A stretch of 64,000 nucleotides of DNA from Aeromonas popoffii. GTDB lineage: Bacteria > Pseudomonadota > Gammaproteobacteria > Enterobacterales > Aeromonadaceae. Numbering within the stretch: the stretch's first letter is position 1; every line of letters begins with the position of its first letter. The notes under the pieces were generated by a model. It searched no databases. It was not told the origin of the DNA and saw nothing but the letters and a program-made list of their open reading frames with translations. The position numbers and the translations under genes are program-made. Below, piece by piece: positions 18,714 to 64,000 of this stretch. Where the stretch lies: positions 1 to 64,000 of the forward strand of contig NZ_CDBI01000103.1 in NCBI RefSeq assembly GCF_000820025.1. Direction: 5' to 3'.

Positions 18714-18775
18714 TGTCGGATGGGTCACGTTGTCTCGGCAAAGCCGCTCCCGGGAGAGCAAGATGTCTGCTCGCA

Positions 18776-21958: not shown

Positions 21959-21988
21959 GGGATCTTGCCAACAGGCTGGCGGTTGAGT

Positions 21989-22017: not shown

Positions 22018-22018
22018 T

Positions 22019-22678
22019 TTAGCCGTTCAGTTGCCAGTCCAGGGTGGGCCAGTCGTGTTCGGCGGCGATCTGACGCAGGCTGGGAGCCGGGTTGACCGCA
22101 TGAGGATGGCTCACCGCCCGCAGCAGTGGCAGGTCGTTGTGGGAGTCGCTGTAACCAAAGCTCCCCTGCCAGAGGTTGTCGTCTCCGGCGAAGAGCTGGT
22201 CGATGCGGGCCACCTTGCCCTCCCGAAAACTCAGGGTGCCGCGAGTCTGGCCGGTCAGCATCCCCTCCTCCTCATCGAGCAGGATGGAAACGCAGTGATC
22301 CATCCCCAGCATCTGCGCCATGGGCGCCACCAGATGTTCGCCGGAGGCCGAGATCAGCACCAGCTCGTCCCCTTGCTTGCGGTGCCACTCGATGCGCGCC
22401 AACCCCTCGGGGTAGATCCGCGCCCGCAGCACCTGCTCGGCGAAGCGGTGGCACTGTTGGCTGAGCCACTGACGTGACTTGCCTGCCAGCGGCTGCAGGG
22501 TGAAGGCCATGTACTGGTGCATGTCCATCTTGCCCTGATGGTAGAGGGACATCATGGCCTGCTCTTCGGCAATCATGTCCGCCGGGGCCAGCTCCTGGGC
22601 CACCATGTACTCCAGCCAGAGGCTGGCGGAATCCCCGGCAATCAGGGTCTCATCCAGATCAAACAGTGCGAGTGCCAT
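22019..22678 (-). CDS. HAD-IB family phosphatase
   Basis: The 219-residue product has all HAD-IB motifs: the nucleophile loop ALFDLDETLI (Asp7 and Asp9), the serine of motif II in LVLISASG, Lys in EGKVARI and the acidic motif YSDSHNDLPLL. The cap region has the Met-rich helices of the phosphoserine phosphatase-like or phosphatidylglycerophosphatase PgpC-like branch. The substrate is not clear. It lies 65 bp downstream of the phosphonate-type ABC operon and could be its last gene. Confidence 0.85.
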   Translation of the reverse strand: MALALFDLDETLIAGDSASLWLEYMVAQELAPADMIAEEQAMMSLYHQGKMDMHQYMAFTLQPLAGKSRQWLSQQCHRFAEQVLRARIYPEGLARIEWHRKQGDELVLISASGEHLVAPMAQMLGMDHCVSILLDEEEGMLTGQTRGTLSFREGKVARIDQLFAGDDNLWQGSFGYSDSHNDLPLLRAVSHPHAVNPAPSLRQIAAEHDWPTLDWQLNG

Positions 22679-22743
22679 GACGGCTCCTTGGGTTGGTGAC
22701 CGGCATCATGATGCCGGTCGAAAACAGAATGGGATACATGGCT

Positions 22744-23751: not shown

Positions 23752-23757
23752 CTTGGA

Positions 23758-24534
23758 TCACCGATGAAATCTGTTGGCCGCCCAGGTGAGCAGCAGGGTC
23801 AGCAGGAAGTAGCTCATCACCAGCGCACTGGTGAAGTGGCCCGAGGTGGCGCGCATGTTGTAGAGGTAGACCTGCAGGGTCTCGTAACGGGTGCCTACCA
23901 GCATGTTGGCAAACACGAACTCGCCGAGCAGGAAGGAGAGCGAGAGAAACAGCGCCGCCAGCAATCCCTTGCGCAGGCAAGGGATCACCACCAACAGGAA
24001 GGCGCGGCGACTGCTCGCTCCCAGCAGGTGGGCAGCATCCATCAGGTCCTTGAGCGGCACCCCTTGCAGGCTGTTGGCCAGCGCCCGGTACATAAAAGGG
24101 AGCACCACAGTGAACCAGGTGCCGATCAGGATCCACGGCGTGCCGACGATGGGCAGGGGGCCGTCGGCGTAGATCTGCAGCAGTCCCACCGAGGAGACCA
24201 CGGGCGGCACCGCAAAGGGGAGCAGGATCAGCAGGTTCATCCAGGGATCCAGCTTGGGGAAGTAGTAGGCCACCACCAACACGGTGGGCACCAGCACCAG
24301 GGTCCCCAGCAGCAGAGTGGCGAAGCAGACCAGCAGGCTGCGGCCAAACGCCGCGAGAAAGCGCGGATCGCCCAACAGCTTCAGATACCAGTCGAGGGTG
24401 AAGCCATCCGGCAGCATGGTCGCCCCCCAGCGGGTGGAGATGGAATAGAGGAAGGTGGCCAGCAGCGGCAGCAGCAGGGTGGCGACCAGCGCCCCCAGCA
24501 CCCACTTTGGCCAGCGCGGTGTCAAATCATGCAT
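23758..24534 (-). CDS. ABC transporter permease (PhnV-like)
   Basis: From the ATG at 24532-24534 the product is 258 residues with six membrane helices. The EAA-type loop for ATPase contact is LMDAAHLLGASSRRAFLLVVIPCLRKG. An upstream in-frame start would add 12 residues that do not look like part of a leader. It pairs with the larger permease 68 bp upstream to form the channel. Confidence 0.85.
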   Translation of the reverse strand: MHDLTPRWPKWVLGALVATLLLPLLATFLYSISTRWGATMLPDGFTLDWYLKLLGDPRFLAAFGRSLLVCFATLLLGTLVLVPTVLVVAYYFPKLDPWMNLLILLPFAVPPVVSSVGLLQIYADGPLPIVGTPWILIGTWFTVVLPFMYRALANSLQGVPLKDLMDAAHLLGASSRRAFLLVVIPCLRKGLLAALFLSLSFLLGEFVFANMLVGTRYETLQVYLYNMRATSGHFTSALVMSYFLLTLLLTWAANRFHR

Positions 24535-24602
24535 CTTGTCGTCTCCCGCCAGGATGCAGGTCAGCTGCACCCGGCTTGTTCGATCCAGTACAGGGTGTCA
24601 GG

Positions 24603-25502
24603 TCATGCATGGGACTGCCCCTTGTTCACATAGCTCTTTTTCAGCAACCACTGGTTGGCAGCCGTCACCACCCCCAGCAGTACCATCAGGATCACCGCCA
24701 GCGCCGCCGCCATATTGGGCTCGAGGAAGATGTCGCCGGAGACCAGACTGGCCACCCTGATAGTCACCAGATTGAAGTTGCCGGTGGTGAGGGCGTAGGC
24801 GGAGGCATAGGCACCCACTGCGTTGGCAAACAGGATGATCAGGGTGCCGAGCAGGGCGGGTGTGAGCACCGGCAGCGCCACGTGCCACACATACTGACGC
24901 TTGCTCGCCCCCAGCAGTGCCGCAGCCTGCGGCCACTCATCCTGCAAGGCATCGAACGCCGGATAGAGCAGCAGCAAGGCGAGCGGGATCTGGAAGTAGG
25001 TGTAGATGAGGATGAGGCCCGACCCCGAGTAGAGGTTGAAGCCGTCGATGAGGCCCCAGGATTTCAGCAGCAGGGTCACAGCACCATTGATGCCGAGAAT
25101 GATGATGAAGGCGAACGCCAGCGGCACCCCGCTGAAGTTGCCTGTCATGGTGACAAAGGCCAGCAGCAGCCGTTTGACCCGCTCGCCGCTGTGGCGTAGC
25201 GCCGCCGCACCCAGGGTGCCGATGGCAAGCCCCGCCAGACTGGCGATACCGGCGATCCGCAACGAGTTGGCGAAGGATTGCAGATAGAAGGGGGAGCTCA
25301 GGATCTCCCGGTAGTAGTCGAGGCCCCAGCCATCCGGGGTCTGAAAGCTGCCCACCAGCACCCACACCATGGGGGCAAGCTGGAACAGGATCATCAGCAG
25401 GATAAACGGCAGCAATACCAGCGCGGGCAGCCAGTGACGGCGCACCCGGTGCCGGGTTACCACGGGTTGATCCAGCAGGATCTCGGTGGTGGCGGGCATC
25501 AT
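24603..25502 (-). CDS. ABC transporter permease (PhnU-like)
   Basis: The 299-residue permease has six helices with a cytosolic N-terminus of about 30 residues. The EAA loop is QAAALLGASKRQYVWHVALPVLTPA. Its start codon shares one base with the stop of the phosphodiesterase-like gene (TGATG), which implies coupled translation. Together with the second permease, the ATPase and the binding protein it makes a complete importer. Confidence 0.87.
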   Translation of the reverse strand: MMPATTEILLDQPVVTRHRVRRHWLPALVLLPFILLMILFQLAPMVWVLVGSFQTPDGWGLDYYREILSSPFYLQSFANSLRIAGIASLAGLAIGTLGAAALRHSGERVKRLLLAFVTMTGNFSGVPLAFAFIIILGINGAVTLLLKSWGLIDGFNLYSGSGLILIYTYFQIPLALLLLYPAFDALQDEWPQAAALLGASKRQYVWHVALPVLTPALLGTLIILFANAVGAYASAYALTTGNFNLVTIRVASLVSGDIFLEPNMAAALAVILMVLLGVVTAANQWLLKKSYVNKGQSHA

Positions 25503-26335
25503 CAGTGCACCTCACGCATAAAGGCCGCCTTGAGCAGCGGGGGAGCAACCGGTTTATCGTGGGGAACGCCCAGCAAGTCGGCCATCAGGGCGCAAAGTTG
25601 GGTCTGGGCGATCACCACGCCATCCGGCCAGTGTTCGATAAAGGCATCGCCAAACAGCCAGAGCGGCACGGTGCGCTCCTCGGGCAGGGTGCCGCCGTGG
25701 CTTAAGTCGTTGTTCATACCGTGATCCGAGGTGATCACCACCTGATACCCCTCTACCAGCCACTGGGGCAGCAGATCGGCCAGCAGGCTGTCCATCCGGC
25801 GCGCCTGATTGCGGTACTGGCGCGAATCGAGGCCACACTGGTGGCCAGCGTCATCCACCCCCATCGGGTGGATCAGCAGAAAGTCGGGATCATGTTGGGT
25901 TCTGAGCCACTCGCCATCCATCAGCAGATGGCTGTCGGGGTAGGCGTCATCCCAGTAGAAGCAGCCGTGCTGGATGGGTAACTGCTCGTCATGGGTGTAA
26001 CGATCTCGCAGCGCCAGCCAGGGGCTGCGGTTGTAGAGTTCGCTCACCCAGTAATAGGCCGCCGCTGCGGTGCGTTTACCCGCGGCGCGGGCCAGATGGA
26101 AGATGGCGTCGTGCTGGCTCAGGCGACTCACCCCGTTGTGGGTGATGCCGCTTGCCACCGGCGGCACGCCGGTCAGGATGCACTCGTAGAGCGGTCGGGA
26201 GAGGGAGGGCAGGGCACAGCTCAGGGTCGTATACAAGCCGCGCTTCGCCTCCACCATGCCACCGAGGTAGCCCATGGTGTGGGCTACCTCGGCTGCCAGA
26301 CCATCCACAAGTACCACTATCACCTTGTGTTGCAC
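25502..26335 (-). CDS. alkaline-phosphatase superfamily phosphodiesterase-like enzyme
   Basis: The 277-residue protein is compact for the nucleotide pyrophosphatase/phosphodiesterase group. Metal-binding motifs are visible: VVLVDGL (Asp11), a Ser-rich nucleophile region LPSLSRPLYE, VDDAGHQCG and TSDHGMNND. There is no signal peptide, so it acts in the cytosol on an imported substrate. It lies between the binding protein and permease genes, overlapping the latter by one base. It may cleave a phosphodiester or phosphonate brought in by this transporter; phosphonoacetate hydrolase is a related family. The exact substrate is unknown. Confidence 0.8.
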   Translation of the reverse strand: MQHKVIVVLVDGLAAEVAHTMGYLGGMVEAKRGLYTTLSCALPSLSRPLYECILTGVPPVASGITHNGVSRLSQHDAIFHLARAAGKRTAAAAYYWVSELYNRSPWLALRDRYTHDEQLPIQHGCFYWDDAYPDSHLLMDGEWLRTQHDPDFLLIHPMGVDDAGHQCGLDSRQYRNQARRMDSLLADLLPQWLVEGYQVVITSDHGMNNDLSHGGTLPEERTVPLWLFGDAFIEHWPDGVVIAQTQLCALMADLLGVPHDKPVAPPLLKAAFMREVH

Positions 26336-26344
26336 TGGATTCCC

Positions 26345-27391
26345 TTACTGCATGTTGATCATGACGGTTTCTTGCCACTGGCGCGGCAGGGCCTTGGAGC
26401 TCTGCTCCCAGGCGGCATGGTCGCTGACCGGCTTGGCATTGGCATACTGCTCGGCGGGCAGCAACTTGGCCTTCACGTCATCCGGCAGGGTCACGTTGCT
26501 GCGGATGGGGCGGGCATAGCCACGGGCCAGGTTGATTTGACCGGCATCGGAGAGGATGTATTCCCGCGCCAGCTTGGCGGCGTTGGGGTTCTTGGCCCAC
26601 TTGTTGATGATGGTGGTGTAACCGGCGATGACGGAGCCGTCGCTCGGGATCACTACCTCAAACTTCTTGGGGTCAATCTGGTCGCGGTAGTTGAGGGCGT
26701 TGAAGTCCCACAGCACACCCACTTCCACTTCGCCCTTCTCGATATTGGCGATGGTCGGGTCATTCAGCGACAGACGACCCTGCTTGGCCAGCTGGCCGAA
26801 CAGCTCCAGCGCGGGCTTGAGGTTCTTCTCGCTGCCGCCGGTGGCATAGGCCGCCGCCAGCACGCCGTTGTTGGCCTGGGAGGCGACACCCACATCACCC
26901 AGGGTCACCTTGTAGTCACCACCCAGCAGGGATTGCCAGCTGGTGGGGGCTGCCTTGACCAGATCCTTGTTGATCAGGAAGGCGATGGTACCGGTATAGG
27001 CCAGCATCCAGTGACCGTCCGCATCCTTGGCCCAGTTGGGAATGTCTGCCCAGGTGGAGGGCTTGTAGGGCTGAGTGACCCCCTGCTTGACCGCCACCGG
27101 ACCGAAGGCGCCGCCCACGTCACCGATATCGGCGGTGGCATTGGCCTTCTCGGCGGCAAACTTGGCGATCTCCTGCGCCGAGCTCATGTCGGTATCCTGA
27201 TGCTTGATGCCGTAGATGCTGCCCAGCTGTTGCCAGGTATCCTTCCAGTTGGCCCAGCTGTCGGGCATGCCGATACTGCTGAGCTGGCCTTCGCCACGGG
27301 CGGCCTTTTCGAGATCCGCGATATTTTCGGCGGCAAACAGTGGTTGGCTGATGGCCACCAGGGCCAGTGCACTTGCGATCACGCTTTTCAT
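26345..27391 (-). CDS. periplasmic binding protein of the phosphonate-type ABC importer
   Basis: The 348-residue product has a signal peptide (MKSVIASALALVAISQPLFAA). Its fold matches extracellular solute-binding family 1: GIGMP-like start, ADIGDVGGAFGP, SLLGGDYKVTLGDVG, VGVLWDFNALNYRDQ. Similar proteins bind iron(III), polyamines or aminoethylphosphonate. It is the first gene of the operon, 9 bp before the enzyme gene, and is divergent from the GntR-family regulator with a 171-bp shared promoter region. Confidence 0.87.
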   Translation of the reverse strand: MKSVIASALALVAISQPLFAAENIADLEKAARGEGQLSSIGMPDSWANWKDTWQQLGSIYGIKHQDTDMSSAQEIAKFAAEKANATADIGDVGGAFGPVAVKQGVTQPYKPSTWADIPNWAKDADGHWMLAYTGTIAFLINKDLVKAAPTSWQSLLGGDYKVTLGDVGVASQANNGVLAAAYATGGSEKNLKPALELFGQLAKQGRLSLNDPTIANIEKGEVEVGVLWDFNALNYRDQIDPKKFEVVIPSDGSVIAGYTTIINKWAKNPNAAKLAREYILSDAGQINLARGYARPIRSNVTLPDDVKAKLLPAEQYANAKPVSDHAAWEQSSKALPRQWQETVMINMQ

Positions 27392-27562
27392 TATCCCATC
27401 CTTCTGGACTAGGTCAGTTAAGGTTCGAGAGGGATGCTAGAGGGGAAATATGACGGTGGCGGGGCGCTTTGATGGCAGTTTGATGACAATCGCCCTGTCA
27501 CGCCGCTGTCATCCGGAACGGTTACAACTCAGGGTCGACAGCCGCTGGTCTACTCCAGGCGG

Positions 27563-28405
27563 GTGCAAACCGGAATGACCAACAGGGATATGAGTGTGAC
27601 CGAGCCGAGATTGAGCGAGCAGATATTGAACGAACAGAGAATGGCCGATGGCCGCTCCTCCTCCAAGTGCGAACAGATTTGCCAGACCCTGCGCCGCTAT
27701 ATCGGCAGCGGCCAGCTGGTGGCGGGGCAGCAGCTGCCCGCCGAACGGGCGCTGAGCGAGCGCTTCGCCACCACCCGCATCACCATCAAGGAGGCGCTCT
27801 CCAGCCTCGAAGCAGACGGCCTCATCTACCGGGCCGAGCGGCGCGGCTGGTTCGTGGCGCCGCCAAGACTCACCTACGATCCTGCCATCCACACCCACTT
27901 TCACCAATGGATCGGCGAGCAGCAACGCACCGCCGAAACCCGGGTGCTGGCCCACGGCAGCGAGCTTGCCAGCAGCGAACTGTGCCGCTGGATGGGGCTG
28001 GATCCCTTCACCCCGCTCTATGAGATCCGCCGCCTGCGGCTGATCGATGGGCGACCTGTGCTCCATGTCAGCCACCACCTGCTGGCCAGCCGCTTTCCCG
28101 ATATCGCCAGCGCGCCGCTGGCCAGCTCCCTCACCGAGCTCTATCAGCAGCGTTATGGCATAGGCCAGGGCGGGGCGAGTATGGAGATCACCCCCTCGGC
28201 AGCACGGGGCGCCATCGCCCGCGCCCTCAATCTGGCGGAGGGGAGTGCCGTGCTGCGGCTGGTGCGGGTCAACTATGACGAGCGAGGGGGGCTGGTGGAT
28301 TGTGATATCGAACACTGGCGGCCAGATGCCATCCGCATCTGTCTGGATACGCGAGCGTTGCAGCCGCTCGCAGGCAAACTGCAACAAACCCGGCGCGCCG
28401 ATTAG
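27563..28405 (+). CDS. GntR-family regulator with UTRA domain (PhnR-like)
   Basis: The longest frame (GTG at 27563) gives 280 residues; ATGs at 27575 and 27590 are alternatives. A winged HTH (about 35-100; GQQLPAERALSERFATTRITIKEALSSLEADGLIY) is followed by a UTRA ligand domain (LYEIRRLRLIDGRPVLHVSHHLL, TPSAARGAIARALNL). It is divergently placed from the transporter operon, which it likely represses or activates with the imported compound as effector. Salmonella PhnR has a comparable role. The 3' end is duplicated downstream. Confidence 0.86.
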   Translation: MQTGMTNRDMSVTEPRLSEQILNEQRMADGRSSSKCEQICQTLRRYIGSGQLVAGQQLPAERALSERFATTRITIKEALSSLEADGLIYRAERRGWFVAPPRLTYDPAIHTHFHQWIGEQQRTAETRVLAHGSELASSELCRWMGLDPFTPLYEIRRLRLIDGRPVLHVSHHLLASRFPDIASAPLASSLTELYQQRYGIGQGGASMEITPSAARGAIARALNLAEGSAVLRLVRVNYDERGGLVDCDIEHWRPDAIRICLDTRALQPLAGKLQQTRRAD

Positions 28406-28516
28406 GGAATATCCAGAGCACTGTCGAACACAGTGGCCATCCGCATCTGTCTCGATACCCAAGCGCTGCAACCGGCCGCAGGCAGATTGCTGCAAGTACC
28501 TCAACTCACCGAGTAG
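28312..28516 (+). repeat. duplication of the GntR gene 3' end
   Basis: The last 75-80 bp of the gene (about 28328-28405) recur with roughly 75-80 percent identity at 28437-28516, including a second in-frame-like ending AIRICLDTQALQPAAGRLLQ... and TAG. The second copy has no start and encodes a diverged version of the same C-terminus. It looks like the leftover tail of an older or homologous copy. Confidence 0.8.
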
Positions 28517-28527
28517 AGCCCAACCAA

Positions 28528-28555
28528 CACGGCGGATCCCGCAGGATCCGCCGTG
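28528..28555. terminator. bidirectional terminator hairpin
   Basis: The perfect hairpin CACGGCGGATCC-CGCA-GGATCCGCCGTG lies between convergent genes and abuts the XRE stop codon. T-runs are short. Confidence 0.65.
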
Positions 28556-28556
28556 A

Positions 28557-29321
28557 TCAGTTGTCGATATTGGGGATCATGTCGTCGAAGCTGTGATAGC
28601 CACAATCCGCCAGTTGCAGCGACATGGTGTAGGTCTTGGCGTGCTCCTGCTGACCGATGGCGGGGCGGTTGAGCTTGAGCTCCTGATGCCAGTACTCCTT
28701 CATCCGATCGATCAGCGCCATCGCCTCGCTCTCGTTGAGGTGCAGCTGGCAGAGCGCCATGTAATTGTTCGGCTTGTGCATGTTCTCCACCAGATACTCC
28801 CCCAGCACCGACATTGCCTGCCGTGCCTGCTGGCGGGCGAAGCGGCTGTGCTGCTCGAAGCTGATGCGCTCGCTGATGAGGAAGTGGTAACTGTTGTCGA
28901 TGCCGAGCTGCAAAATGTCGAGCTTCTCCAGCTTGCGCAGGTAGAGGTAGCAGGAGGCATCGGTCAGGCTGTACTCCCGCTTGAGATCGATCAACGTCTT
29001 GTCGCGCCAGAAGATATTGGCGAGAAAGGCGTAGAGCCCCGGCTCGTTGTGAAACGCCTCATCTTGCTCCTGAGTGAAGACGGCGCGGCGGCTCTGGGCG
29101 TCCTGAGTGCGATCCAGCAGCTCCTCGAATGACAGCCCCACCAAGTGACAGATCTCCAGCAGAGTATCGAACGGCAGGGAGGGCTTGTTCATCATCCGTT
29201 TCACGGTGGCGATGGAGACGCCCATCGCCTCTGCCAGGGTCTGATAGCGGATCCCCTTGTCGGTCAGGGTCTTCTTCAGAGTGTTGAGAATATTGTTGGC
29301 CAGGGTCTGGCTGTAGGTCAT
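28557..29321 (-). CDS. XRE-family transcriptional regulator
   Basis: The 254-residue product has an N-terminal Cro/CI-type HTH (about residues 20-75; YQTLAEAMGVSIATVKRMMNKPSLPFDTLLEICHLVGLSFEELL). The following 180 residues contain a winged-helix-like segment (IDLKREYSLTDASCYLYLRKLEKLDILQL) and a helical C-terminus. It may bind a ligand or dimerise there. No target is evident from neighbours. It is monocistronic. Confidence 0.82.
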   Translation of the reverse strand: MTYSQTLANNILNTLKKTLTDKGIRYQTLAEAMGVSIATVKRMMNKPSLPFDTLLEICHLVGLSFEELLDRTQDAQSRRAVFTQEQDEAFHNEPGLYAFLANIFWRDKTLIDLKREYSLTDASCYLYLRKLEKLDILQLGIDNSYHFLISERISFEQHSRFARQQARQAMSVLGEYLVENMHKPNNYMALCQLHLNESEAMALIDRMKEYWHQELKLNRPAIGQQEHAKTYTMSLQLADCGYHSFDDMIPNIDN

Positions 29322-29652
29322 GCAACTATTCCTTTATCTGCATCTTTATGTTGTGTCAGAAATTGAGTGATTTTGTCGTTGTGGTCTCAGATATTGACAC
29401 TTAAAAAAACCAGAGGAAATAAACCCGTCGTAATCGATTGAAATGGCCAGACCAGTCAAGGGGGAAGGTTGCAGATAGTGATACTCTGCGGTGCATATCT
29501 TTCAACCATTCAACATTTTTCTGGTGGTGCATAAAACATCGCGCATAATTCAAAACGAATCGGATTCAAGACCTTCCTGGTTGAGAAATCGATTGTTTGC
29601 TTCCAATTTAAGGGTTTTTTAAACCGAAAGGTTTTTATTCTTTCCTGGCATT

Positions 29653-29690
29653 GAGCGGAACTCGCAAGAGGTCCGCTTTTTTCTTTTCCC
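29653..29690 (+). terminator. terminator-like hairpin in a 440-bp gap
   Basis: GAGCGGAACT-CGCA-AGAGGTCCGC is followed by TTTTTTCTTTTC. No plus-strand gene precedes it within 1 kb, so it may end an unannotated small RNA or be a relic. The rest of 29322-29759 is AT-rich promoter DNA in which I see no gene. Confidence 0.6.
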
Positions 29691-29759
29691 CGAATGTGCA
29701 CCTACCGTCAAGCGGAGGCGGGCCCCGCCTCCATCTGTCATACCAAAGGCTCCCCGGCC

Positions 29760-30674
29760 TCACTCCCCCTTGCCGGGAAACAGCTTGGGGATCTCCCGTA
29801 CCAGCCAGCTCTTGGCCTTGCCCATGGTATCGCGCCGCCAGGCCAGCACGACCTGGATCTGGTGACGATATTCGGGGCTGATCACCTTGAGGCGGCCCGC
29901 CTTGATGTCCTCTTCTATCCAGCTCAGCGGCATGGTGCCGACGCCTATCCCCGCCAGCAGGGCATCGCGCTTCTCCGTCATGGTACTGACGGTGAGGCGT
30001 GGCTGCTTGTCGAGCAGGCGATAGGTGAGCACCGGCTTGCGCAGCGCAGAGTCCGCCACTGCGATGGCGCGGTAGCGGCGCAGGGTTTCGTCCGCCAGGG
30101 GCTCGGGCTCCTGGTGCAGCGGGTGATCCGGGTGGGCGACGTAGAGCATCACCTCTTCCTGCAGCACCTGATGCTTGACGCCTGTCAGCATGATATCGGG
30201 GTTGAGGGAGGAGATGAGCAGGTCGGCGCGGCCATCTTCCAGACACTCCCAGCTGCCTGCCAGCACCTCGGCGCGAAACCTCAACCGGGTATCCGTCAGC
30301 TCGGCCAACCTTTCGACCAGGGGATAGAGCGTCTGCAGCGGCATCAGGGCATCGACGGCGATGGTGATGTCTGTCTCCCAGCCACGGGCCAGCGCCCGGG
30401 TTTCACCCACCAGATGCTCGGCGGCCGCCAGCAGTACCCGGCCTTGCTCCAGCAGCATGCGGCCGGCCGGGGTGAACTTGGTTCTGTGACCGCTGCGATC
30501 AAACAGCATGGCGTCCAGCTCGTCTTCCAGCTTCTGTACCGTGTAGCTCAGCGCCGAGGGGACCTTGCCCAGCTCGTCGGCGGCCGCCGCGAAGCTGCCA
30601 CGGCGATCGATAGCATCCAGTACCCGGATGGCTTCCAGGGTCAGCGCCCGTTCCTTGTTCGATTCCTTGGCCAT
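29760..30674 (-). CDS. yhaJ: LysR-family regulator YhaJ
   Basis: The 304-residue protein matches E. coli YhaJ closely. The N-terminal HTH region reads RALTLEAIRVLDAIDRRGSFAAAADELGKVPSALSYTVQKLEDELD. Other shared stretches are FDRSGHRTKFTPAGRMLLE, EVLAGSWECLEDGRAD, KQPRLTVSTM and the C-terminal AWRRDTMGKAKSWLVREIPKLFPGK. YhaJ in E. coli activates yqjF and other genes in response to quinones and nitroaromatic breakdown products. Here yhaK and yqjF homologues lie just beyond, preserving the link. Confidence 0.93.
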   Translation of the reverse strand: MAKESNKERALTLEAIRVLDAIDRRGSFAAAADELGKVPSALSYTVQKLEDELDAMLFDRSGHRTKFTPAGRMLLEQGRVLLAAAEHLVGETRALARGWETDITIAVDALMPLQTLYPLVERLAELTDTRLRFRAEVLAGSWECLEDGRADLLISSLNPDIMLTGVKHQVLQEEVMLYVAHPDHPLHQEPEPLADETLRRYRAIAVADSALRKPVLTYRLLDKQPRLTVSTMTEKRDALLAGIGVGTMPLSWIEEDIKAGRLKVISPEYRHQIQVVLAWRRDTMGKAKSWLVREIPKLFPGKGE

Positions 30675-55361: not shown

Positions 55362-55616
55362 TTAAGGCGTGGCGCCATAGGTATCGACGATCTTCTGATA
55401 CCGGCCATCAGCCCGCATGGCGTTCAGCTGGCGATCAAACCAGCGCTGGTGTACCGCCAGGCGAAAGGTAAAGTGATACTGGGTAGGGGCAAACCGATCA
55501 TATTGCCTGACCCGGTCGGGGGCATAGATATCGGCGCCATATTTGCTGTCGGCCAATTGCACCAGATAGTGGTAAAACACCCGCTGTTCTCTTTCTCTAT
55601 GGCGAGCCTGTGTCAA
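55362..55616 (-). pseudogene. C-terminal fragment of a solute-binding family 3 gene
   Basis: The 84-codon frame encodes only the C-terminal third of a periplasmic family 3 binding protein (VFYHYLVQLADSKYGADIYAP, YHFTFRLAVHQRWFDRQLNAMRADGRYQKIVDTYG). There is no signal peptide, and the first codons have no upstream homologous region, because sequence before 55616 changes abruptly to AT-rich island DNA. The 5' part was lost, probably when the island inserted or rearranged. Confidence 0.75.
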
Positions 55617-55624
55617 TAACAGGC

Positions 55625-55652
55625 AAAAAAAAGCCCTGAATCAACAGGGCCT
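55625..55652 (-). terminator. minus-strand terminator at the island edge
   Basis: The hairpin GCCCTG-TTGATT-CAGGGC is followed on the minus strand by eight T. It would end a minus-strand transcript coming from the island. No intact gene now uses it. Confidence 0.75.
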
Positions 55653-55766
55653 TCTGGGAATGCGTTGCCGATCAAAAAGGTTGCATATACCAAGCCCATG
55701 TAAATAAAATAAATTTTCTTTGTAAATCAATGGTTTATTGGATTATTTTGCAAGCTTAACATTCCT

Positions 55767-55809
55767 TTGTGTAAACAAACATTCAATTACTGGGGAGTTG
55801 TTTACACAA
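55767..55809. promoter_or_regulatory. inverted 12-bp operator pair upstream of the antitoxin gene
   Basis: TTGTGTAAACAA (55767-55778) and its exact inverse TTGTTTACACAA (55798-55809) are 19 bp apart. A related half-site, TTGTTTACAAA, occurs at 56272-56282 ahead of the second antitoxin gene. This spacing and symmetry suit an autoregulatory antitoxin operator. Nothing else but a short direct repeat (GTACACTA near 55914 and 55925) is visible in 55653-55996. Confidence 0.6.
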
Positions 55810-55996
55810 TTCCTGTCTCTAACAATCAGTGTTGTATACTGACATGCACAGGGACTGCCTAACATCATCTGTCATCCATTTTTTGGCTGCCAAGCGTAGC
55901 GAGGCAGGGCAAGTACACTACGAGTACACTAAAAGGCGCCTGTGAAGGTGCAATTAGCAGTGCTGTAATTGGTACCCAAACCATCAGGCCCCGACT

Positions 55997-56248
55997 ATGA
56001 GCAATCAGATTCTCTCCGCGACTGCGGCCAGCATCACCGAACTGAAACGCAACCCGATGGGCACACTCAAGAAGGGCAATGGTTCTGCCGTTGCCATCCT
56101 CGACCGCAACGAACCAGCCTTCTACTGTGTGCCCCCCGAACTCTTTGCCTGCTATGTCGAGCTGGTCGAAGACGCCGAGCTTAACCGGATAGTTGAGGAA
56201 CGCATGGCCTCACTCGACAGGGTCAACGTCTCGCTGGATGACCTATGA
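55997..56248 (+). CDS. Phd/YefM (StbD-like) antitoxin, orphan
   Basis: The 83-residue product resembles StbD-type antitoxins: ILSATAASITELKRNPMGTLKKGNGSAVAILDRNEPAFYCVPPELF, then an acidic C-terminal tail that would normally wrap a RelE-type toxin (NRIVEERMASLDRVNVSLDDL). The N-terminus binds DNA and autorepresses. The next start codon overlaps its stop (ATGA at 56245), exactly where the toxin should begin, but that frame ends after 18 codons. Confidence 0.87.
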   Translation: MSNQILSATAASITELKRNPMGTLKKGNGSAVAILDRNEPAFYCVPPELFACYVELVEDAELNRIVEERMASLDRVNVSLDDL

Positions 56249-56301
56249 CGACAATTGCACATTTTCACAACTTGTTTACAAATGTCTTAGCTAAAGTGTA
56301 G
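56245..56301 (+). pseudogene. remnant of the RelE/StbE-type toxin gene
   Basis: ATG at 56245 overlaps the antitoxin stop as in intact stbDE pairs. It encodes only MTTIAHFHNLFTNVLAKV before TAG at 56299. The body of the toxin is missing, and the frame runs straight into the promoter of the next antitoxin gene. Confidence 0.6.
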
Positions 56302-56311
56302 AGGGGGTGTA

Positions 56312-56629
56312 ATGAGAGGCAAAGATTTAACATTTAGCCGTTATGACGCAGCGGTTTATCTGCGAAATGAGCAAGACATAAAAGCTTATCTGGAAGCTGT
56401 ATTAGAGGATGGTGATCCTTCGATGATTGGTGTTGCTCTCGGCAATATCGCCCGTTCTCGGAGCGTTAGCCAACTTGCGATGGATGCCAAAATGAGCAGA
56501 GATAGCATCCTTGACGTTTTGTCAGGTCAAGGGAGCCCAAATTTCGCCACAATAGCAAAACTGGCAAATGTAATGGGATTTCGGATAGAGCTAATGCAAA
56601 ACTCAGTTAGTCGGCCTGTGGAACGATAA
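56312..56629 (+). CDS. HigA-type addiction-module antitoxin, orphan
   Basis: The 105-residue product matches the HI1420-type antidote family: FSRYDAAVYLRNEQDIKAYLEAVLEDGDPSMIGVALGNIARSRSVSQLAMDAKMSRDSILDVLSGQGSPNFATIAKLANVMGFRIEL, with an XRE-like HTH at about 55-95. GAGGGGGTGTA precedes the ATG. Its toxin (HigB/RelE-like) normally lies directly upstream, but the space holds only the broken toxin start described above. No toxin follows. Confidence 0.86.
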   Translation: MRGKDLTFSRYDAAVYLRNEQDIKAYLEAVLEDGDPSMIGVALGNIARSRSVSQLAMDAKMSRDSILDVLSGQGSPNFATIAKLANVMGFRIELMQNSVSRPVER

Positions 56630-56700
56630 CTTTTAGCTACTCCAGCACTTTTGTGCCATGTCCTCTATAAGACGGTGTCTAACTGATATGTAGTCAGGAT

Positions 56701-57150
56701 TTATGGCACAATACCATGTTCGATCCGACCAATGAGCTCGACCACCGCCTGAACTCCCATCGGCGTCGCTAAGACATCGGTAGGCTTCTCACCCCCCAGC
56801 CCTTTTGCCGAACAATGTAACCATGACATCGCCATAGCAAGGTCACCATCGTGTAGCGAAATTGCCGCATCAAGGGCTTGTATAACACCGTATACCCTAG
56901 TTCCTTGCACAAGAGTTAGAGGGGTTCCATGCCTCAGCTTGCGGTTTACGGTACTCTGACTAATCCCGGTTAGATGGCAAATCGTTTTCATATCAGACCT
57001 GACTGACTCAATGAGTCTAACGAGAATGCCTGGTGCGATACCTGCCACAATCCACGAGTGAATGCCCAATGGGTCGCTCGGAATTCCTAGGGATAGAGTA
57101 AGGCTATGGGCCGTTGAGCGTGGGTTGTTAGATCGTGCCGAGAAAGTCAT
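56701..57150 (-). CDS. Xre/MbcA/ParS-type (DUF2384) antitoxin, orphan
   Basis: The 149-residue product has an HTH segment (ICHLTGISQSTVNRKLRHGTPLTLVQGTRVYGVIQAL, about 55-93). The C-terminal DUF2384 toxin-binding domain is GEKPTDVLATPMGVQAVVELIGRIEHGIVP. Such proteins neutralise RES-domain NAD-degrading toxins, encoded just downstream. Here the 60 bp downstream are empty and the next gene is convergent, so the toxin is missing. The start at 57148-57150 faces the repeat field, which may hold its operators. Confidence 0.82.
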   Translation of the reverse strand: MTFSARSNNPRSTAHSLTLSLGIPSDPLGIHSWIVAGIAPGILVRLIESVRSDMKTICHLTGISQSTVNRKLRHGTPLTLVQGTRVYGVIQALDAAISLHDGDLAMAMSWLHCSAKGLGGEKPTDVLATPMGVQAVVELIGRIEHGIVP

Positions 57151-57250
57151 GATGGTTGTGCTCCAACTATCCAGAGATAGCTTTAAAAATAACCATAAAA
57201 AGATCTTGCGGGAAGGCTATGGAGGGGCATTAGGGCCGGATGATGCGCAG

Positions 57251-57612
57251 AACTTTAGGTGCTTTCCATACACCTCCATCTACTTCCAAGTAATTTTCTT
57301 TAAAAACAATAGTTTAAACTTTAGGCCTTTCCCATACTGCCTTTCCCACAACTTTAGCTATTTCCCACAGTGGCCTTCCCATAGATCCGTTGTTCTTCTT
57401 GGCTACGCACTACAATAGCCTTTTCCTACGGGCCTTGCCGGAGGCTAAGAACTTTAGGTATTTCCCATACTGCCTTTCCCACAACTTTAGCCATTTCCAA
57501 CAGTGGCCTCCCCATAGATCCATCGTTTTGACCGGAAATCTTGGCTACGCACTACATCAGACGTTCCCTATGGGTTTTGTCGGAGGCTAAGAACTTTAGG
57601 TGTTTCCCATAC
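57251..57612. repeat. iteron-like field: six copies of a 20-bp motif
   Basis: The motif AACTTTAGGNNTTTCCCATAC occurs at 57251, 57317, 57350, 57450, 57483 and 57592, all in one orientation, two with a CAC/CAA ending. Copies 2-3 and 4-5 form matching pairs 33 bp apart within a larger repeat of 133-142 bp (GGCTACGCACTACA and GGAGGCTAAG also recur). Spacing is too irregular for CRISPR. The stretch 57151-57884 carries no supportable gene. Confidence 0.85.
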
Positions 57613-57856
57613 TTGATCTCCCGTATGGTGCACAGAGTGGTGCTTGTGGGTGGAACGTAGCCGTCTTTAGCAAGAAGGCTTATTAAAGCATAATGGAAGG
57701 GATTCAATTGGGGGTGTTGTGCTGTCTGTCTGGGTTTACTAGAGCTCTTCAGCGTGAGCAACTCAAAAGCCCAAGAGCGTGTAGGGAGCCCAAACAAGTC
57801 TGATTTTGTTATAGTCAGGTCTTGTTCTTATGTTATTATTTTTCTAAATTTATTTA

Positions 57857-57862
57857 TATAAT
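57857..57862 (+). promoter_or_regulatory. -10-like element before the giant NTPase gene
   Basis: TATAAT lies 22 bp upstream of the start codon in very AT-rich DNA. No good -35 hexamer is found at the right spacing. AAGG at 57874-57877 is a usable ribosome site. Confidence 0.45.
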
Positions 57863-57884
57863 GCTTTAATAATAAGGCGTAATT

Positions 57885-60800
57885 ATGAAAGCGAACTCTG
57901 ACCTAATTCATTATTCTAGAGCTGGTGATATTTTCCATTATAGATGGGCTGTAAAAAGGTGTTTGCATCTACTCGATTTTAACACTGATTTAGAGTACCT
58001 GACTATCGAGGGCTCTCAAGAGCATAGTCTTTCTGGTGAATGTGTTATTGATTTGGCAGAGTATCGTAAAAATTTAGAAGGCGAGCAGCAGGTTGAATAC
58101 TTCCAGTTAAAACACTCAACAGTACAGGTTGATAACCCTTTTACTCTATCAAAGTTAAAAGAAACTATAGAAGGCTTTTCTAAACGATTTGTAGATCTGA
58201 TTTCTTCCAAAAGAAAAATTTCAGTGGTAAAATTTACTGTAGTTACCAATAGAATTATTTCCTCCACTTTTAAGAATAATATAGTAAAAATATCCTCAGG
58301 TAATATTCCATCAGGGAACTTCATAAAAACACTTGAAAAATATACCAATCTAAAAGGACATGAGCTTATAAGGTTTTGTAAGTGTCTACAGTTCTGTGAT
58401 TCTGAAGGAAATTATAACCAACAAAAATATGATATTCACAAAGAGCTCTATAGGTTATCTGTTTCGAGGAATGTCCTTGATAGAGAGAAATTATTAGTTG
58501 CAAAGATTTGGGGAAAAATTGAACCCGGGAAGGATAATGTTATAACTCGGGAAGATATGCTCGAAGCATTTGATGTAATAAGTTTTGATGACTTTTTTCC
58601 AGCACCACCATTATTTGAACCCGTTTCACACTATATTGCTAGAAATGAACAGACCAACATAGCCACATCAATAAAGAATGCCAAAACACACACAATAATA
58701 ACTGCAAATGGAGGTGTCGGAAAATCAATTCTGAGTAGTAATATCTCTGTCGAGTTCAATGAGCCATCAATAGTAGTTGCATATGACTGCTTTGGTAATG
58801 GCAGCTATCGTAGAACAAGCGCCAAAAGACATGAAGTAAAATATGCCCTTTCTCAGATAATAAATATGCTAGCGAAAGATGGCTTATGTGACCAAATAAT
58901 ACCATCAAGAAATGAACCAGACGAATATTGGATTAAGGCCTTTCTTAATAGAATTAGAGATGCGTGCTCTGTACTATCATCTCAGGATGAAGAGGCTATT
59001 CTAGTATTAATTTTTGATGCAGCTGACAATGCGGAAATGGCGGCAGAAGAACAAGGTGGAACATGTTTTTCTAATCAACTTTTAAAAGAGGTTGTACCAG
59101 GGAATTGCCGGTTGGTATTTACCTGTAGACCTGAAAGACTAGATCTTCTTGACCCACCTTACTCTGTAAATATAATTAAACTATCTCCGTTTTCAAATGA
59201 GGAAACATTAGAGAACTTAAGAGTAAAGTATGCTTATGCAACTATAGAACAAGCTACAGAGTTTAATCGTTTGACCGGTGGAAACCCTCGGGTTCAGTCT
59301 AATGCTATGTCATTACAAATGACATCATTAGACCATCTGTTACTTTCCTTTAATTCGAGACTTTTAACGGTTGAAGATTTAATTGAGAGGCAGTTAGAAG
59401 AGTCAATTATTAGAATAAAGAATGACTTCCCCATTAATTATCGTGAGAGTATTGATAACATTTGTACTGGATTGGCAGTACTACCACCATTTGTACCTAT
59501 AGCTGTTTTAGCAAAAGCTGCTAATGTGTCAGTGGATTCGGTAAAAAGCTTTATAGCAGATCTGGGCCATCCATTATGGCAAATTGATGACACAGTTCAA
59601 TTTAGAGATGAACCAACCGAGAAGTGGTTCCAGGATAATTATATTGCTACGCCAGATAAAATATATAGTTTTGTAAATTTAATAAAACCTTTATCTAAAG
59701 AGTTTTCATATGTTTCAGAGTCACTTCCCTTATTGCTACTGAAATCTGAGCAGCTAGATGAATTGGTGGAGTTGGCATTATCTGATAGTTTCTTACCCTC
59801 AATCAGCGTCTTCGATAATAAGCAAATTAAGGTACAGAGACTGCAATATGCTTTCAAAGCCGCGTTGAAAAACAATAAAATATGTGAAGCTATTAAATTG
59901 GCTCTAATTGCTGGTGAGGAAATTGCGGGAAATGACCGCCAAATAGATATTTTAGCTAACAACATAGATCTTGCCTCTTTATTTTTATCTTCAGATAGGA
60001 AGCAAGAGTTGGCGCACAGGAAAGAAATGAGAGGTAACTGGGATGGATCTGAAACGATCTTCTCAGCTTCACTACTGTCCACCGTAGCCGGTTTTAGTGG
60101 TGAGGCCTATAGTTATTACAGGTCAGCCGTACACTGGCTTAATCGTTACTTTGAAAGACGTGATGAAGCAAAAGAACATGAAGACAGATTCAATGAGAAA
60201 CTTGAAGATATTGAAATAGTAGAATTAGCATTCGTTAAGTATCGTGTTAGAGGGTGGAGAGAGTGTGTTGACTTTCTTCTGTCGTGGAATCCCTCATCAT
60301 GCATATATAACATTACGTCTAAATTTATAGAACGACTGATTGATAATAAGGATTTTGAAAAAATATCAGAAATGGCAAACTACGGTAAAAACGATCCGAG
60401 TTTTATTCTAGCCATTACGTCAGAGCTAAATAAGGTAGGCAAGGCGCCTCCCAGAAACTGTTTAGTTCGTTGCTTGAATCAAATAATAAACCCTTGCTCC
60501 AGATTAGAAAAGCCATCTGATTACTTTCAACATTCTGGCGCAACAGTTGGCTCTTACTTGTCTTTTTTTGAAGCCTGTTTAATTCATCAATTGCCAAAAT
60601 CCAACATTAGAAAAGGGATTGATTATTATTTTGATTTCCCAATGCTCTACCGTATTAGTGATGTACACCAATATGATCGCGCTAGGGAAAGTGTTTTACG
60701 TTATCTTTCTATTCGCGCTGTATTGGAAAATGACTTTGATTTATTTTTCGAAAATTATATACCCAAGAAATGGCTTGATGGAAAAGCTTCTCGTGAAAAT

Positions 60801-63800
60801 AAGAAGGAGCTTGATAGAGCAAAAGAATTTGTAGAGAAATTGCTACCTTGGTACATGGTTAGAGCAAAAATATTATCAGGTACAACTTTGAACTTAAATG
60901 AAGAGCATACATTAGCTACTAAGTTATCTTCAAAAGTAGGACGTGCTCATTATTATGAACATGACCCCATTCCTTATGAGGTCAGCAAGATAAGATTTGA
61001 GAATATTTTATTTTGTAAAGACGGCTACATTGAGGAATTAAATGATTTCACTCAAGCCTATCATAATGATGAAGTGAAAGTATTACTTATAGATAACTTA
61101 TATATTCTTCGAGCTTGCTGTAGAAGTGATAAGCTTTTTGAGCTTAGTGATTTTATAGAGAAAGAGTGTTGTTTTAGCTTGAAAAACTATGACTATGATG
61201 AATCACCAGAATCTCGTGCAGAGCAATTTATAAAATTATCTAGGGCTGTACTTAGTGTTTCTCTAAATGATGCTGCCTTTTATTTCGATGAAGCTCTCAA
61301 TAAAGCATCAGACTTTGGCGATGAGGGAGTTGTTCGTTGGGAGGCATTGAGTGCTATTGCTAAGCGGAGCTCAATATCAGGATCTAGTAATCCTGAACTT
61401 GCACATCGCTATATGCGATGTGCAGAAATGATAGGTGATTCCGTTAATAAAGAAAAACATTGGAATCGTTATGATGCTATATCTACTTGTTTTCAATTAT
61501 CACCAGAGTCGACATTCTCCATTCTTAGTAGATGGAAAGATAGAAGTGTTAGTTGGCATGAAAGGCACATTGTCGCGCTTGCAAATAGTACAATAAACTC
61601 TAATGTTACTTCGCCAGCATCATTATGGTCTTTATCATTCTTCTCTTGGGATCATGGACGTTATGATTTTTTACAAAAATGCCTTGAAAAAGAAACGTCT
61701 AAGATAAATCAACAAAAAATGTTGAACAGTTATGTTAAGGGGCTGAGAGCACAAGGATATCTTGGTGATAAATGGTGTCGCGTAAATGATTTAGCTTCAC
61801 AATATAATTTAGAGTGTTTAAATAAAGAGATAAATAGGCTAATTGAACTGTCATCAAAAGCCAATCCACCTGGATCAGTATTAGTCGGTCACGGGAAAGA
61901 GGCTGGGTTTGAAAATGGACATTGGGAGGAACTATATGGGGGATTCGAATTATTAACCAATATAGGTTTTAGCTCTGCATTTGAATGCTATAAAAACCAG
62001 CCTTATCCGAAAAGACAGAGTATGTTTTGGATAGGGTGTTACAAAAAAGTAACGCCGAGGAATGCTAGCTCCTTTTTAGAAATAATAAGCCAGTGTGAAA
62101 CACTTGATTTTCATGACCTACGTGAGGCATTCGAGCAGATACCTAGTGCATGGAGAGATAAGGTGTCTTTGGGACATAGCTGGAATAATATAATTTATTA
62201 TATTGCCTCTAGATACCCTACAAGATTCACTACCATTTATGAAAGAGGATATTTTATCAATGCCTTTATATTGAATGAAAGCACTCACGAATATATAAAA
62301 AATGGTATTCTTAATGGTTTCTCGAGTTCGGTTGACATCGAGTCAGCATCAGCATTATTTGGTTTTGTTCATTATAGTTCTAACGAATTAGATGAAGGAG
62401 ACGCTCTGATATTAATTGATTTCGGACTATCTAGGCTAGAAGTATATCTTGAAGACGACTATGCTGATGGGTGTTGGGATGAATGCATGAAAGTATCTGA
62501 AAGTATCCCTCACGCCTTAGTTAGCTATATTTATGCTAACCTAGGCTCTCCTAAATCAGAGGAGCGATGGAAAGCTGTACATGCAGTTTTAGAACTATAT
62601 ACATTAAATTGCCAGCAAGAAATAAAATTGCTGATTGATCTCTACAATTCAGGATTGCTTCCATCTTATGTCCCTAAGGGATATGTATTTTATGATCTAC
62701 ACGCGAAACTATATTTGCTCGTTGCTTTAACACGCTGCGCTTCTGAATGCCCTATACTACTAATAGATTACTATTATACTTTTTATGCTACCGCATGTAA
62801 TAAAAAACAAGGTTTTTTGATTCGATTCTATGCAAAACAAATATGCCTTTATTTATATCGAGTCAAGATGGATTTATTTAGTGAGGATGACATTGATCAA
62901 CTTCACAAAGCTTGTTTACCACAATATCACTCTATCGAGGAAAATAAATATCTTCACAGAATAGACTCTCCTTGGCATAAAAGTGGAGAGTTAGGTCTAC
63001 TTCCTGAACTTCGGTTTAGTTATGATTTTGATAGATATTGGTTTGAGCCGTTAGGGCGCGTCTTCGGTATTTCTGAAGTGCAAGTTGAAGATCTTGCTAG
63101 GCATGTTTTATTCAATGATTGGAAGTTAAGTTTTGATTCCTCACATATACCTGATTCAAGATCTGCACTTTGGAAAAGTTATCGGCTTAGTTCAGATACG
63201 TTCTCTTCGCATGGATGTTATCCAAAAATTGATAGTTATGGGTTTTATGTTTCGTATCATCTTATGTTTGAGGTTGCATCAAGATTACTTGCTAGGATGC
63301 CTGTAGTTGAACATAAGGGGTGTGATATTAGTTGTTGGGATGAATGGTTGAAGAGGCATCTCATTCTAAATAAAAACCATATGTTGTTAGCTGAACTTAG
63401 AGACCCTATTCCTATTGTTAGGCCAAGCTGGTTTCAGGAGAAATATAGTGAAGGCTGGCCTTGGCAAATAGTAGAAACCGATTTTATTGATAGCTTGGTT
63501 TTGGTTGATGGTTTAACTACGTGGCTTAATGTAGAGGGGTGCTGGAATGAGTATCGTGATGGTAAGAATGAGCATGTGTCATTCTCAAGCGTGCTAGTGC
63601 CAAAGGGATTAGGTCAATCTCTCTTGCACACTTCACTCAGTGTTGAAGATTGCATTGGTGAGTGTGATTTATATAATTTCTGTGAGTTTGATGATCGTGA
63701 TGAATCTAAGTTCTATTGTAAAGAATGGTTATTTTCTAGTGACAGAGACAATGATATAGAATCAAAGGATCCATACGCCGGAGAGATTTCCGATAGACCT

Positions 63801-64000
63801 TATAAACTGAGAGAGTGCATTACCAATATCATTGATGTATCTTACAGTGATGATGAAAAAAAATGCGTGCTGATTTCAGATAATAGCGTTTTCCTTGAGA
63901 ACTTGTTTTGGAGTGAAAATAGAACTGGCGATAGAGACTCTTATATAAGCTCTGGTGCTTCAGTTAAAGCATCACTAGGTTTTTTGAAGACAGTATGTGA
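57885..64000 (+). CDS. giant nuclease-STAND NTPase, Avs-like defence protein (3' end outside window)
   Basis: ATG at 57885 opens a frame with no stop to the window edge, at least 2038 codons, checked through every line. Residues 1-110 look like a PD-(D/E)XK/DUF4297 nuclease: Glu42, Asp56 in VIDLAEY, and YFQLKHS with Gln74 and Lys76. A P-loop NTPase follows: Walker A ANGGVGKS (274-281), Walker B LVLIFDAAD (373-381), FTCRPER (Arg415) and LTGGNP (463-468), all typical of STAND ATPases. The remaining 1500 or more residues are helix-rich, then mixed. In Avs proteins such a region senses phage terminase or portal. GC is far lower than that of the backbone. Avs3-like is the closest match I can name; a novel branch is possible. 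Confidence 0.82.
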   Translation, partial: MKANSDLIHYSRAGDIFHYRWAVKRCLHLLDFNTDLEYLTIEGSQEHSLSGECVIDLAEYRKNLEGEQQVEYFQLKHSTVQVDNPFTLSKLKETIEGFSKRFVDLISSKRKISVVKFTVVTNRIISSTFKNNIVKISSGNIPSGNFIKTLEKYTNLKGHELIRFCKCLQFCDSEGNYNQQKYDIHKELYRLSVSRNVLDREKLLVAKIWGKIEPGKDNVITREDMLEAFDVISFDDFFPAPPLFEPVSHYIARNEQTNIATSIKNAKTHTIITANGGVGKSILSSNISVEFNEPSIVVAYDCFGNGSYRRTSAKRHEVKYALSQIINMLAKDGLCDQIIPSRNEPDEYWIKAFLNRIRDACSVLSSQDEEAILVLIFDAADNAEMAAEEQGGTCFSNQLLKEVVPGNCRLVFTCRPERLDLLDPPYSVNIIKLSPFSNEETLENLRVKYAYATIEQATEFNRLTGGNPRVQSNAMSLQMTSLDHLLLSFNSRLLTVEDLIERQLEESIIRIKNDFPINYRESIDNICTGLAVLPPFVPIAVLAKAANVSVDSVKSFIADLGHPLWQIDDTVQFRDEPTEKWFQDNYIATPDKIYSFVNLIKPLSKEFSYVSESLPLLLLKSEQLDELVELALSDSFLPSISVFDNKQIKVQRLQYAFKAALKNNKICEAIKLALIAGEEIAGNDRQIDILANNIDLASLFLSSDRKQELAHRKEMRGNWDGSETIFSASLLSTVAGFSGEAYSYYRSAVHWLNRYFERRDEAKEHEDRFNEKLEDIEIVELAFVKYRVRGWRECVDFLLSWNPSSCIYNITSKFIERLIDNKDFEKISEMANYGKNDPSFILAITSELNKVGKAPPRNCLVRCLNQIINPCSRLEKPSDYFQHSGATVGSYLSFFEACLIHQLPKSNIRKGIDYYFDFPMLYRISDVHQYDRARESVLRYLSIRAVLENDFDLFFENYIPKKWLDGKASRENKKELDRAKEFVEKLLPWYMVRAKILSGTTLNLNEEHTLATKLSSKVGRAHYYEHDPIPYEVSKIRFENILFCKDGYIEELNDFTQAYHNDEVKVLLIDNLYILRACCRSDKLFELSDFIEKECCFSLKNYDYDESPESRAEQFIKLSRAVLSVSLNDAAFYFDEALNKASDFGDEGVVRWEALSAIAKRSSISGSSNPELAHRYMRCAEMIGDSVNKEKHWNRYDAISTCFQLSPESTFSILSRWKDRSVSWHERHIVALANSTINSNVTSPASLWSLSFFSWDHGRYDFLQKCLEKETSKINQQKMLNSYVKGLRAQGYLGDKWCRVNDLASQYNLECLNKEINRLIELSSKANPPGSVLVGHGKEAGFENGHWEELYGGFELLTNIGFSSAFECYKNQPYPKRQSMFWIGCYKKVTPRNASSFLEIISQCETLDFHDLREAFEQIPSAWRDKVSLGHSWNNIIYYIASRYPTRFTTIYERGYFINAFILNESTHEYIKNGILNGFSSSVDIESASALFGFVHYSSNELDEGDALILIDFGLSRLEVYLEDDYADGCWDECMKVSESIPHALVSYIYANLGSPKSEERWKAVHAVLELYTLNCQQEIKLLIDLYNSGLLPSYVPKGYVFYDLHAKLYLLVALTRCASECPILLIDYYYTFYATACNKKQGFLIRFYAKQICLYLYRVKMDLFSEDDIDQLHKACLPQYHSIEENKYLHRIDSPWHKSGELGLLPELRFSYDFDRYWFEPLGRVFGISEVQVEDLARHVLFNDWKLSFDSSHIPDSRSALWKSYRLSSDTFSSHGCYPKIDSYGFYVSYHLMFEVASRLLARMPVVEHKGCDISCWDEWLKRHLILNKNHMLLAELRDPIPIVRPSWFQEKYSEGWPWQIVETDFIDSLVLVDGLTTWLNVEGCWNEYRDGKNEHVSFSSVLVPKGLGQSLLHTSLSVEDCIGECDLYNFCEFDDRDESKFYCKEWLFSSDRDNDIESKDPYAGEISDRPYKLRECITNIIDVSYSDDEKKCVLISDNSVFLENLFWSENRTGDRDSYISSGASVKASLGFLKTVC

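Follow-up and report, generated by a model that had tools for sequence, protein, structure and literature searches.

An apparently intact, divergent Avs3 antiphage system in a GInt island at the ssb gene of Aeromonas popoffii

Introduction

Among the antiphage proteins of the Avs3 (AVAST type 3) family, SeAvs3 of Salmonella has a solved structure, deposited in the PDB as 8DGC under the title 'Avs3 bound to phage PhiV-1 terminase'. Its mechanism, built on a tetramer and on dimers of the nuclease, is outlined in PMC11291478, and PMC10286901 is a further source on it. Here we describe a SeAvs3-like giant gene, avs3a, and its partner gene avs3b, which lie within a GInt island at the ssb gene of Aeromonas popoffii. 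The stretch that we analysed (the window) is 64,000 nucleotides long and corresponds to bases 1-64000 of the 77,164-bp contig NZ_CDBI01000103.1 of a 4.76 Mb genome (assembly GCF_000820025.1); contig coordinates continue those of the window, and positions above 64000 refer to the neighbouring contig sequence.

The protein encoded by avs3a, referred to below as the query, has 2094 residues and SeAvs3 has 2092, and both are arranged in the order nuclease, STAND NTPase and helical sensor. They also have in common the sensor fold, the D...QxK motif of the nuclease, Walker A, and the DAAD and GNP motifs, and a SeAvs3-like protein encoded on a Klebsiella variicola plasmid (L009; 4396 bits to 8DGC) likewise has Avs3b downstream. 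However, the query is about 28% identical to L009, the two are found on opposite sides of the midpoint split of our tree and the query scores far below the NCBI cut-off for Avs3a.

GInt islands, as described by Bardaji et al. (2017, PMC5385486), consist of a cargo, an AT-rich far end and, at the opposite end, three recombinase-type genes plus a small gene, and insert at the end of ssb so that its product is unchanged. The island described here agrees in each of these respects (GC content 0.335 in the first 200 bp of its far end), and differs from the published GInts in having Avs3 as cargo. PMC10121019, where a GInt is called a Tn6571-family transposon, already reports GInts of Escherichia coli carrying defence systems, and the legend of its Fig. 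3, which includes a GInt panel, defines AVAST.

Results

The giant gene encodes a full-length Avs3a

We consider it highly probable that avs3a, apparently intact, encodes a member of the Avs3 family, is paired with avs3b and carried by a GInt at ssb, and acts by a SeAvs3-like mechanism. From the ATG at 57885 (+), the frame is free of stops for 2038 codons up to the end of the window (57885..64000), just as the initial annotation had claimed, and it ends 169 bases past the window, where contig positions 64167-64169 form the stop codon. The frame is beyond chance, because its product is homologous over the full length to a protein of known structure: phmmer against the PDB aligned residues 4-2091 with SeAvs3 (8DGC, 869 bits, E 6.7e-260). 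The PADLOC Avs3a profile PDLC02167 spans residues 3-2085 of the 2094 with 1326 bits (the tool does not display its own threshold for this profile).

The predicted fold of the C-terminal region points to the same family. An AlphaFold2 model of residues 1131-2038, built from a 31-row alignment, has a mean predicted local distance difference test score (pLDDT) of 81.0 and a predicted template modelling score (pTM) of 0.83. It superimposes on chain B of 8DGC over 843 residues with a Z score of 30.0 and a root-mean-square deviation of 4.1, the runner-up entry reaching a Z score of 10.7. Foldseek likewise matched the model to 8DGC (E 2.5e-36, template modelling score by query 0.79), and the sensor profile matched residues 1139-2028 of SeAvs3 with 885 bits. 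The initial annotation had offered two readings, an Avs3-like protein or a new antiphage sensor, and had named searches with Avs profiles and a predicted structure of the C-terminal region as ways to check them. The end-to-end matches to PADLOC Avs3a and 8DGC, the sensor fold and the avs3b gene downstream all speak for the former; a new sensor type is not supported, since architecture, profile and fold are those of Avs3 all along.

Nuclease, NTPase and sensor

Residues 1-225 (57885..58559, +) make up the N-terminal PD-(D/E)xK domain of the Cap4/DUF4297 type, with D56, Q74 and K76. This region matches the SeAvs3 nuclease directly (phmmer, E 2.9e-25), and the profile of its family (A4) matches residues 5-238 of SeAvs3 with 266 bits; PF14130, the Pfam model Cap4_nuclease of the DUF4297 family, is matched by 7 of the 40 N-termini scanned. 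It is followed by the STAND NTPase core (58560..59744, +, residues ~226-620), with Walker A at 274-281, DAAD at 378-381, CRPER at 414-418 and GNP at 466-468; from Pfam, NPHP3_N is barely above its cut-off on this core and NACHT is under it. The rest of the protein, residues ~621-2094, is the helical-repeat sensor (59745..64000 in the window, +, ending at contig 64166), of which residues 1131-2038 were modelled.

For comparison, we chose 88 loci for their similarity to the query, made up of the top 80 among 262 genome hits, seven plasmid loci and one genome, and aligned 79 full-length Avs3a rows, namely the query and 78 of the 88 loci. D56 and Q74 are each conserved in 78 of the 79 rows and K76 in all of them. 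G277, G279 and K280 of Walker A are invariant, as are D378, D381, R415, R418, N467 and P468, and residue 281 is S in 69 rows and T in 10. The initial annotation had thus placed the nuclease and NTPase residues correctly, with S281 varying between S and T. Judging from this conservation, the active site of the nuclease is intact, and the STAND NTPase core has its Walker A, Walker B and sensor residues. The residues D40, Q53 and K55, mutated in DUF4297-HerA, parallel the D...QxK motif of the query.

The sole exception at D56 and Q74 is L013, a Shewanella plasmid protein whose entire N-terminus is unlike the others. This locus (L013:2656-3600, Shewanella baltica pSBAL17502) has an Avs3-type NTPase and sensor behind a different N-terminus without the nuclease motif. 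In Pfam, this N-terminus is matched only by weak helicase-like models, and these lie at its P-loop end; the plasmids contained no further copy of it. It is possibly an effector swap.

The partner gene avs3b

The initial annotation had suggested looking for a partner gene to the right of the window, and avs3b is indeed the next gene after avs3a (contig 64009-64770, +, outside the window; PADLOC PDLC02168, E 1.5e-35). By alignment, its start is probably the ATG at 64075, which overlaps the last 95 nt of avs3a; such a start within the end of avs3a suggests that translation of the two genes is coupled. An avs3b-like frame is present in 80 of the 88 loci. Of the eight loci lacking it, six have no more than 209 nt of sequence remaining beyond the avs3a frame, and in the other two (L050, L089) avs3a is shortened. 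We modelled the Avs3b homologue from Photobacterium, which is predicted to be all helical (mean pLDDT 74.5, pTM 0.58). The model gave no Foldseek match at E<=0.001, which does not demonstrate a new fold, and the best match of the Avs3b profile in the PDB had an E value of 0.17. Avs3b is described here as a predicted helical accessory protein.

A branch distinct from that of SeAvs3

The 79 rows were placed in a quick, midpoint-rooted tree, from which loci with frames shorter than 1900 aa were left out (L010, L017, L026, L043, L050, L061, L063, L074, L085, L091). In four of these (L010, L026, L061, L091) avs3a is broken into two frames, by decay or by sequencing error. The midpoint split separates a 19-row group with L009, the SeAvs3 relative, from a 60-row group with the query, both with support 100; since the loci were picked by similarity to the query, the sizes of these branches are not abundances. 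The two groups also differ in their scores with the NCBIfam Avs3a equivalog NF041816: its cut-off is passed by 9 of the 14 tested members of the SeAvs3 group (2326-3320 bits for all 14), and by none of the 34 tested members of the query's group, where the top single match is 1884 bits. By this measure and by the tree, the query Avs3a belongs to a divergent branch distinct from that of SeAvs3. Compared with L009, the query has a 35% identical nuclease and a 39% identical NTPase; across the sensor, divided into four consecutive blocks, the values are 24, 18, 29 and 26%.

Rows of the query's branch come from Bacteroidota, Bacillota, Pseudomonadota, Chloroflexota, Cyanobacteriota, Verrucomicrobiota and others. 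The closest relatives are from Photobacterium angustum ATCC 25915 and Vibrio tasmaniensis 1F-187 (both 67% identical) and Psychromonas sp. Urea-02u-13 (65%). These three match the query over its full length and each has an Avs3b partner; the gin proteins of the query are unmatched in their flanks (up to 9 kb per side, less at contig ends). Avs3a proteins of Enterovibrio and Psychrobacter follow at 48% identity. Within its own genus, Avs3a is found in 1 of 37 genomes, that of the query. Among 274 evenly drawn genomes of the class, NF041816 had three matches: the query's own genome, G048 (full-length, 2748 bits) and G070 (short and weak, 18 bits). In the plasmid collection, 17 records match Avs3a, all with identities below 60%, and in 7 of these the match covers 80% or more of the query. 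A phage origin was also considered and rejected, with zero matches of the Avs3a protein in 50,697 phage records.

The GInt island

The mobile island lies at the 3' end of ssb and is about 14.6 kb long; it occupies 55681..64000 of the window and extends to contig position 70304. These limits (~55681-70304) are derived from a relative in which the site is empty (L097, genome G004): its bases 1426-1507 correspond to contig 55599-55680, and its sequence from 1501 onward to the contig from 70305 onward. At the island ends, where imperfect direct repeats of 10-17 nt have been published for such elements, the L097 alignment shows a 7-nt overlap and the two junctions are only weakly similar. The GC content of the island is 0.426 and that of avs3a 0.361, against 0.569 for the whole contig. 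To the right of avs3b on the minus strand there are ginD-like (contig 64830-65294, 154 aa), ginC-like (65294-67378, 694 aa), ginB (67344-68909, 521 aa) and ginA (68881-70170, 429 aa) genes and then ssb, and uvrA (+) comes next, ssb and uvrA being named by reading. GinB matches NF041502 with 606.6 bits, above its cut-off, and Phage_integrase below its cut-off, whereas GinA matches Phage_integrase above it (44.8 bits). The calls for ginC and ginD are based on order, size and similarity to the complete ssb-side gin sets of G020, G021, G028 and G032. With a ginABCD operon and a site-specific insertion whose empty counterpart is seen in a relative, the island is a GInt, and avs3a-avs3b is its cargo.

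Close to both island ends, TTGTTTACAC is present as an inverted pair. The left pair lies at 55769 (-) and 55798 (+), spanning 55769..55807, 88-126 bp from the island end, and the right pair at contig 70172 (+) and 70229 (-), 66-132 bp from the end. These four copies are the only ones in the 77,164-bp contig, where about 0.15 would be expected by chance with equal bases, and the pairs are candidate recombinase sites. The cargo near the left end also includes a Phd/YefM-like gene (55997-56248, +; weak, below cut-off), an HI1420-type antidote gene (56312-56629, +) and an Xre/MbcA/ParS antitoxin gene (56701-57150, -). No toxin partners were recognised for these three antitoxin-like genes (55997-57150). 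The SeAvs3-like plasmid L009 likewise has an annotated antitoxin gene. Just outside the left end of the island (window 55589-55599), L097-L099 have about 0.6 kb of extra sequence that is absent in this strain. Plasmids carrying the same gin operon were sought and rejected: 37 plasmid records match, none covers 80% of the operon, and all are 60-80% identical.

The ssb slot in the genus

We compared 30 ssb loci, one each from 30 of the 37 genomes of the genus. Seven, including that of the query, have a GinA-like match beside ssb (L108 is short, at a contig end), 22 have the left-flank DNA there and one (L116) has neither; an eighth gin set of the genus is found in G020. GinB family matches are present in 6 of the 37 genomes. 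The genes next to these sets are varied. In G032, Lamassu genes LmuA, LmuB and LmuC lie beside the ssb-linked gin genes, and in G035 type I restriction-modification genes lie beside an incomplete set (short ginB, with ginC and ginD not recognised). A RecD-like gene lies near ginD in both G020 and G021, and a corresponding frame of 749 aa is present in G028. About 40 kb further along the G021 contig there is a second gin set with adjoining MBL-type and E1-E2 genes. Gin-adjacent genes in the ssb slots (L137-L143; G032, G035, G021, G020, G028) also include Fic-like and probable metal-resistance genes, the latter by reading only. Within the genus, GInts have a hotspot at the 3' end of ssb, where the neighbouring genes differ by species and are assigned as cargo by position.

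Avs3 and GInts elsewhere

Chryseobacterium artocarpi UTM-3, cited as an example of a GInt at the beginning of ssb (PMC5385486), also combines the two (L144-L145, contig C23, ~11152-30280): avs3a-avs3b lies about 7 kb from the ginD of a distant ginDCBA operon at ssb, with LexA-like, Y-family polymerase and DnaE-like genes in between. In Pseudoalteromonas sp. H71 (L146, L147), ssb-ginABC is at a contig end, and another contig, of 6.2 kb, has an avs3a of 60% identity; the two may belong to one GInt. In P. angustum, NF041502 matches are on contigs C4 and C32, and avs3a is on C34. Among the genomes of 50 relatives, 3 have NF041502 matches (E<=1e-15), and only in C. artocarpi are they on the avs3 contig. 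A further 30 relatives, searched with the query's own GinB protein, gave one match, off the avs3 contig. As far as these searches reach, Avs3 with a GInt is thus the exception among the relatives.

Discussion

Since the query has the same domains, fold and residues as SeAvs3, its action is best explained by the same mechanism. Upon phage infection, the C-terminal helical sensor would, by homology to SeAvs3, bind the large subunit of the phage terminase. The STAND NTPase would then let four copies of Avs3a assemble, and the paired N-terminal PD-(D/E)xK nucleases would switch on and cut DNA, so that the cell would die or be arrested before phages are released. Ligand, tetramer, DNA cleavage and protection are those expected by analogy with SeAvs3. 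The GinABCD proteins would move the whole island, which may be mobile at present.

Several observations weigh against assigning this system to Avs3 with a SeAvs3-like trigger. The query scores 1442 bits with NF041816, whose cut-off is 2800, and 127 bits with the Avs3b equivalog NF041817, whose cut-off is 200; being below both, the system is filed in the Avs3 family and outside these named equivalogs. The N-terminus of the query has no direct PF14130 match at E<=0.05. The assignment of this N-terminus to the PD-(D/E)XK nucleases of the DUF4297 type is supported by the A4 match to the SeAvs3 nuclease and by the conserved D56, Q74 and K76. Finally, the protein has diverged most in its sensor, and binding of terminase is, on these identities, not certain.

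This last point leads to the possibility that the query is an Avs3-branch receptor that works in the same way and is triggered by something other than the large terminase, such as the portal or another conserved virion protein. The full support for the split between the two branches and the low conservation of the sensor would fit this idea, as would the variety of ligands among Avs proteins: according to PMC12931631, JADA is the activator of AVAST type 5, and large terminase and portal are known AVAST activators. However, the modelled sensor (1131-2038) shares the fold of terminase-bound SeAvs3 over 843 residues, and we regard a different ligand as improbable. We give a similarly small chance to the view that avs3 mainly guards the island, as one of the 'guns for hire' described in PMC10121019, and keeps the GInt in place by excluding rival phages and elements. 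In favour of it, avs3 sits alongside ginABCD and three antitoxin-like genes, and in two further species of the genus the ssb-linked gin sets adjoin other defence genes. Yet none of the cargo genes was recognised as an addiction toxin, and island guarding is compatible with a SeAvs3-like defence system rather than opposed to it. That the gene encodes a STAND regulator or non-defence ATPase merely resembling Avs3, or is decayed, is hardly credible: Pfam gives only weak generic NTPase models and the gene is solitary in its genus (1/37 genomes), but the matches to Avs3a and SeAvs3 are full-length, the catalytic residues are intact and the partner gene is present.

It is tempting to speculate further that the query's branch is a second, widespread Avs3 subtype, whose sensor might be retuned to another terminase lineage or ligand, and that GInts at ssb might serve as its shuttle across phyla. 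The latter idea comes from the fact that here, as in Chryseobacterium, Avs3 accompanies a gin operon at ssb, and that the two operons are distantly related. We consider this combined scenario rather unlikely, if less so than either a different ligand or island guarding. A literature search covering titles and the beginnings of abstracts, with few subscription papers, returned nothing on the query's branch of Avs3, on the function of Avs3b, or on GInts of this genus that carry Avs3.

Both the Avs3 family and defence-carrying GInts of E. coli are known; the Avs3a described here is a new, divergent member. SeAvs3, the sole solved Avs3 returned by our PDB searches, sits in one branch of the family. 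The Avs3a described here, intact and from the other branch, offers a natural way to test whether terminase recognition is general in Avs3. In addition, a site-specific island at ssb, in a slot that holds other defence genes in sister species, provides a concrete route of spread.

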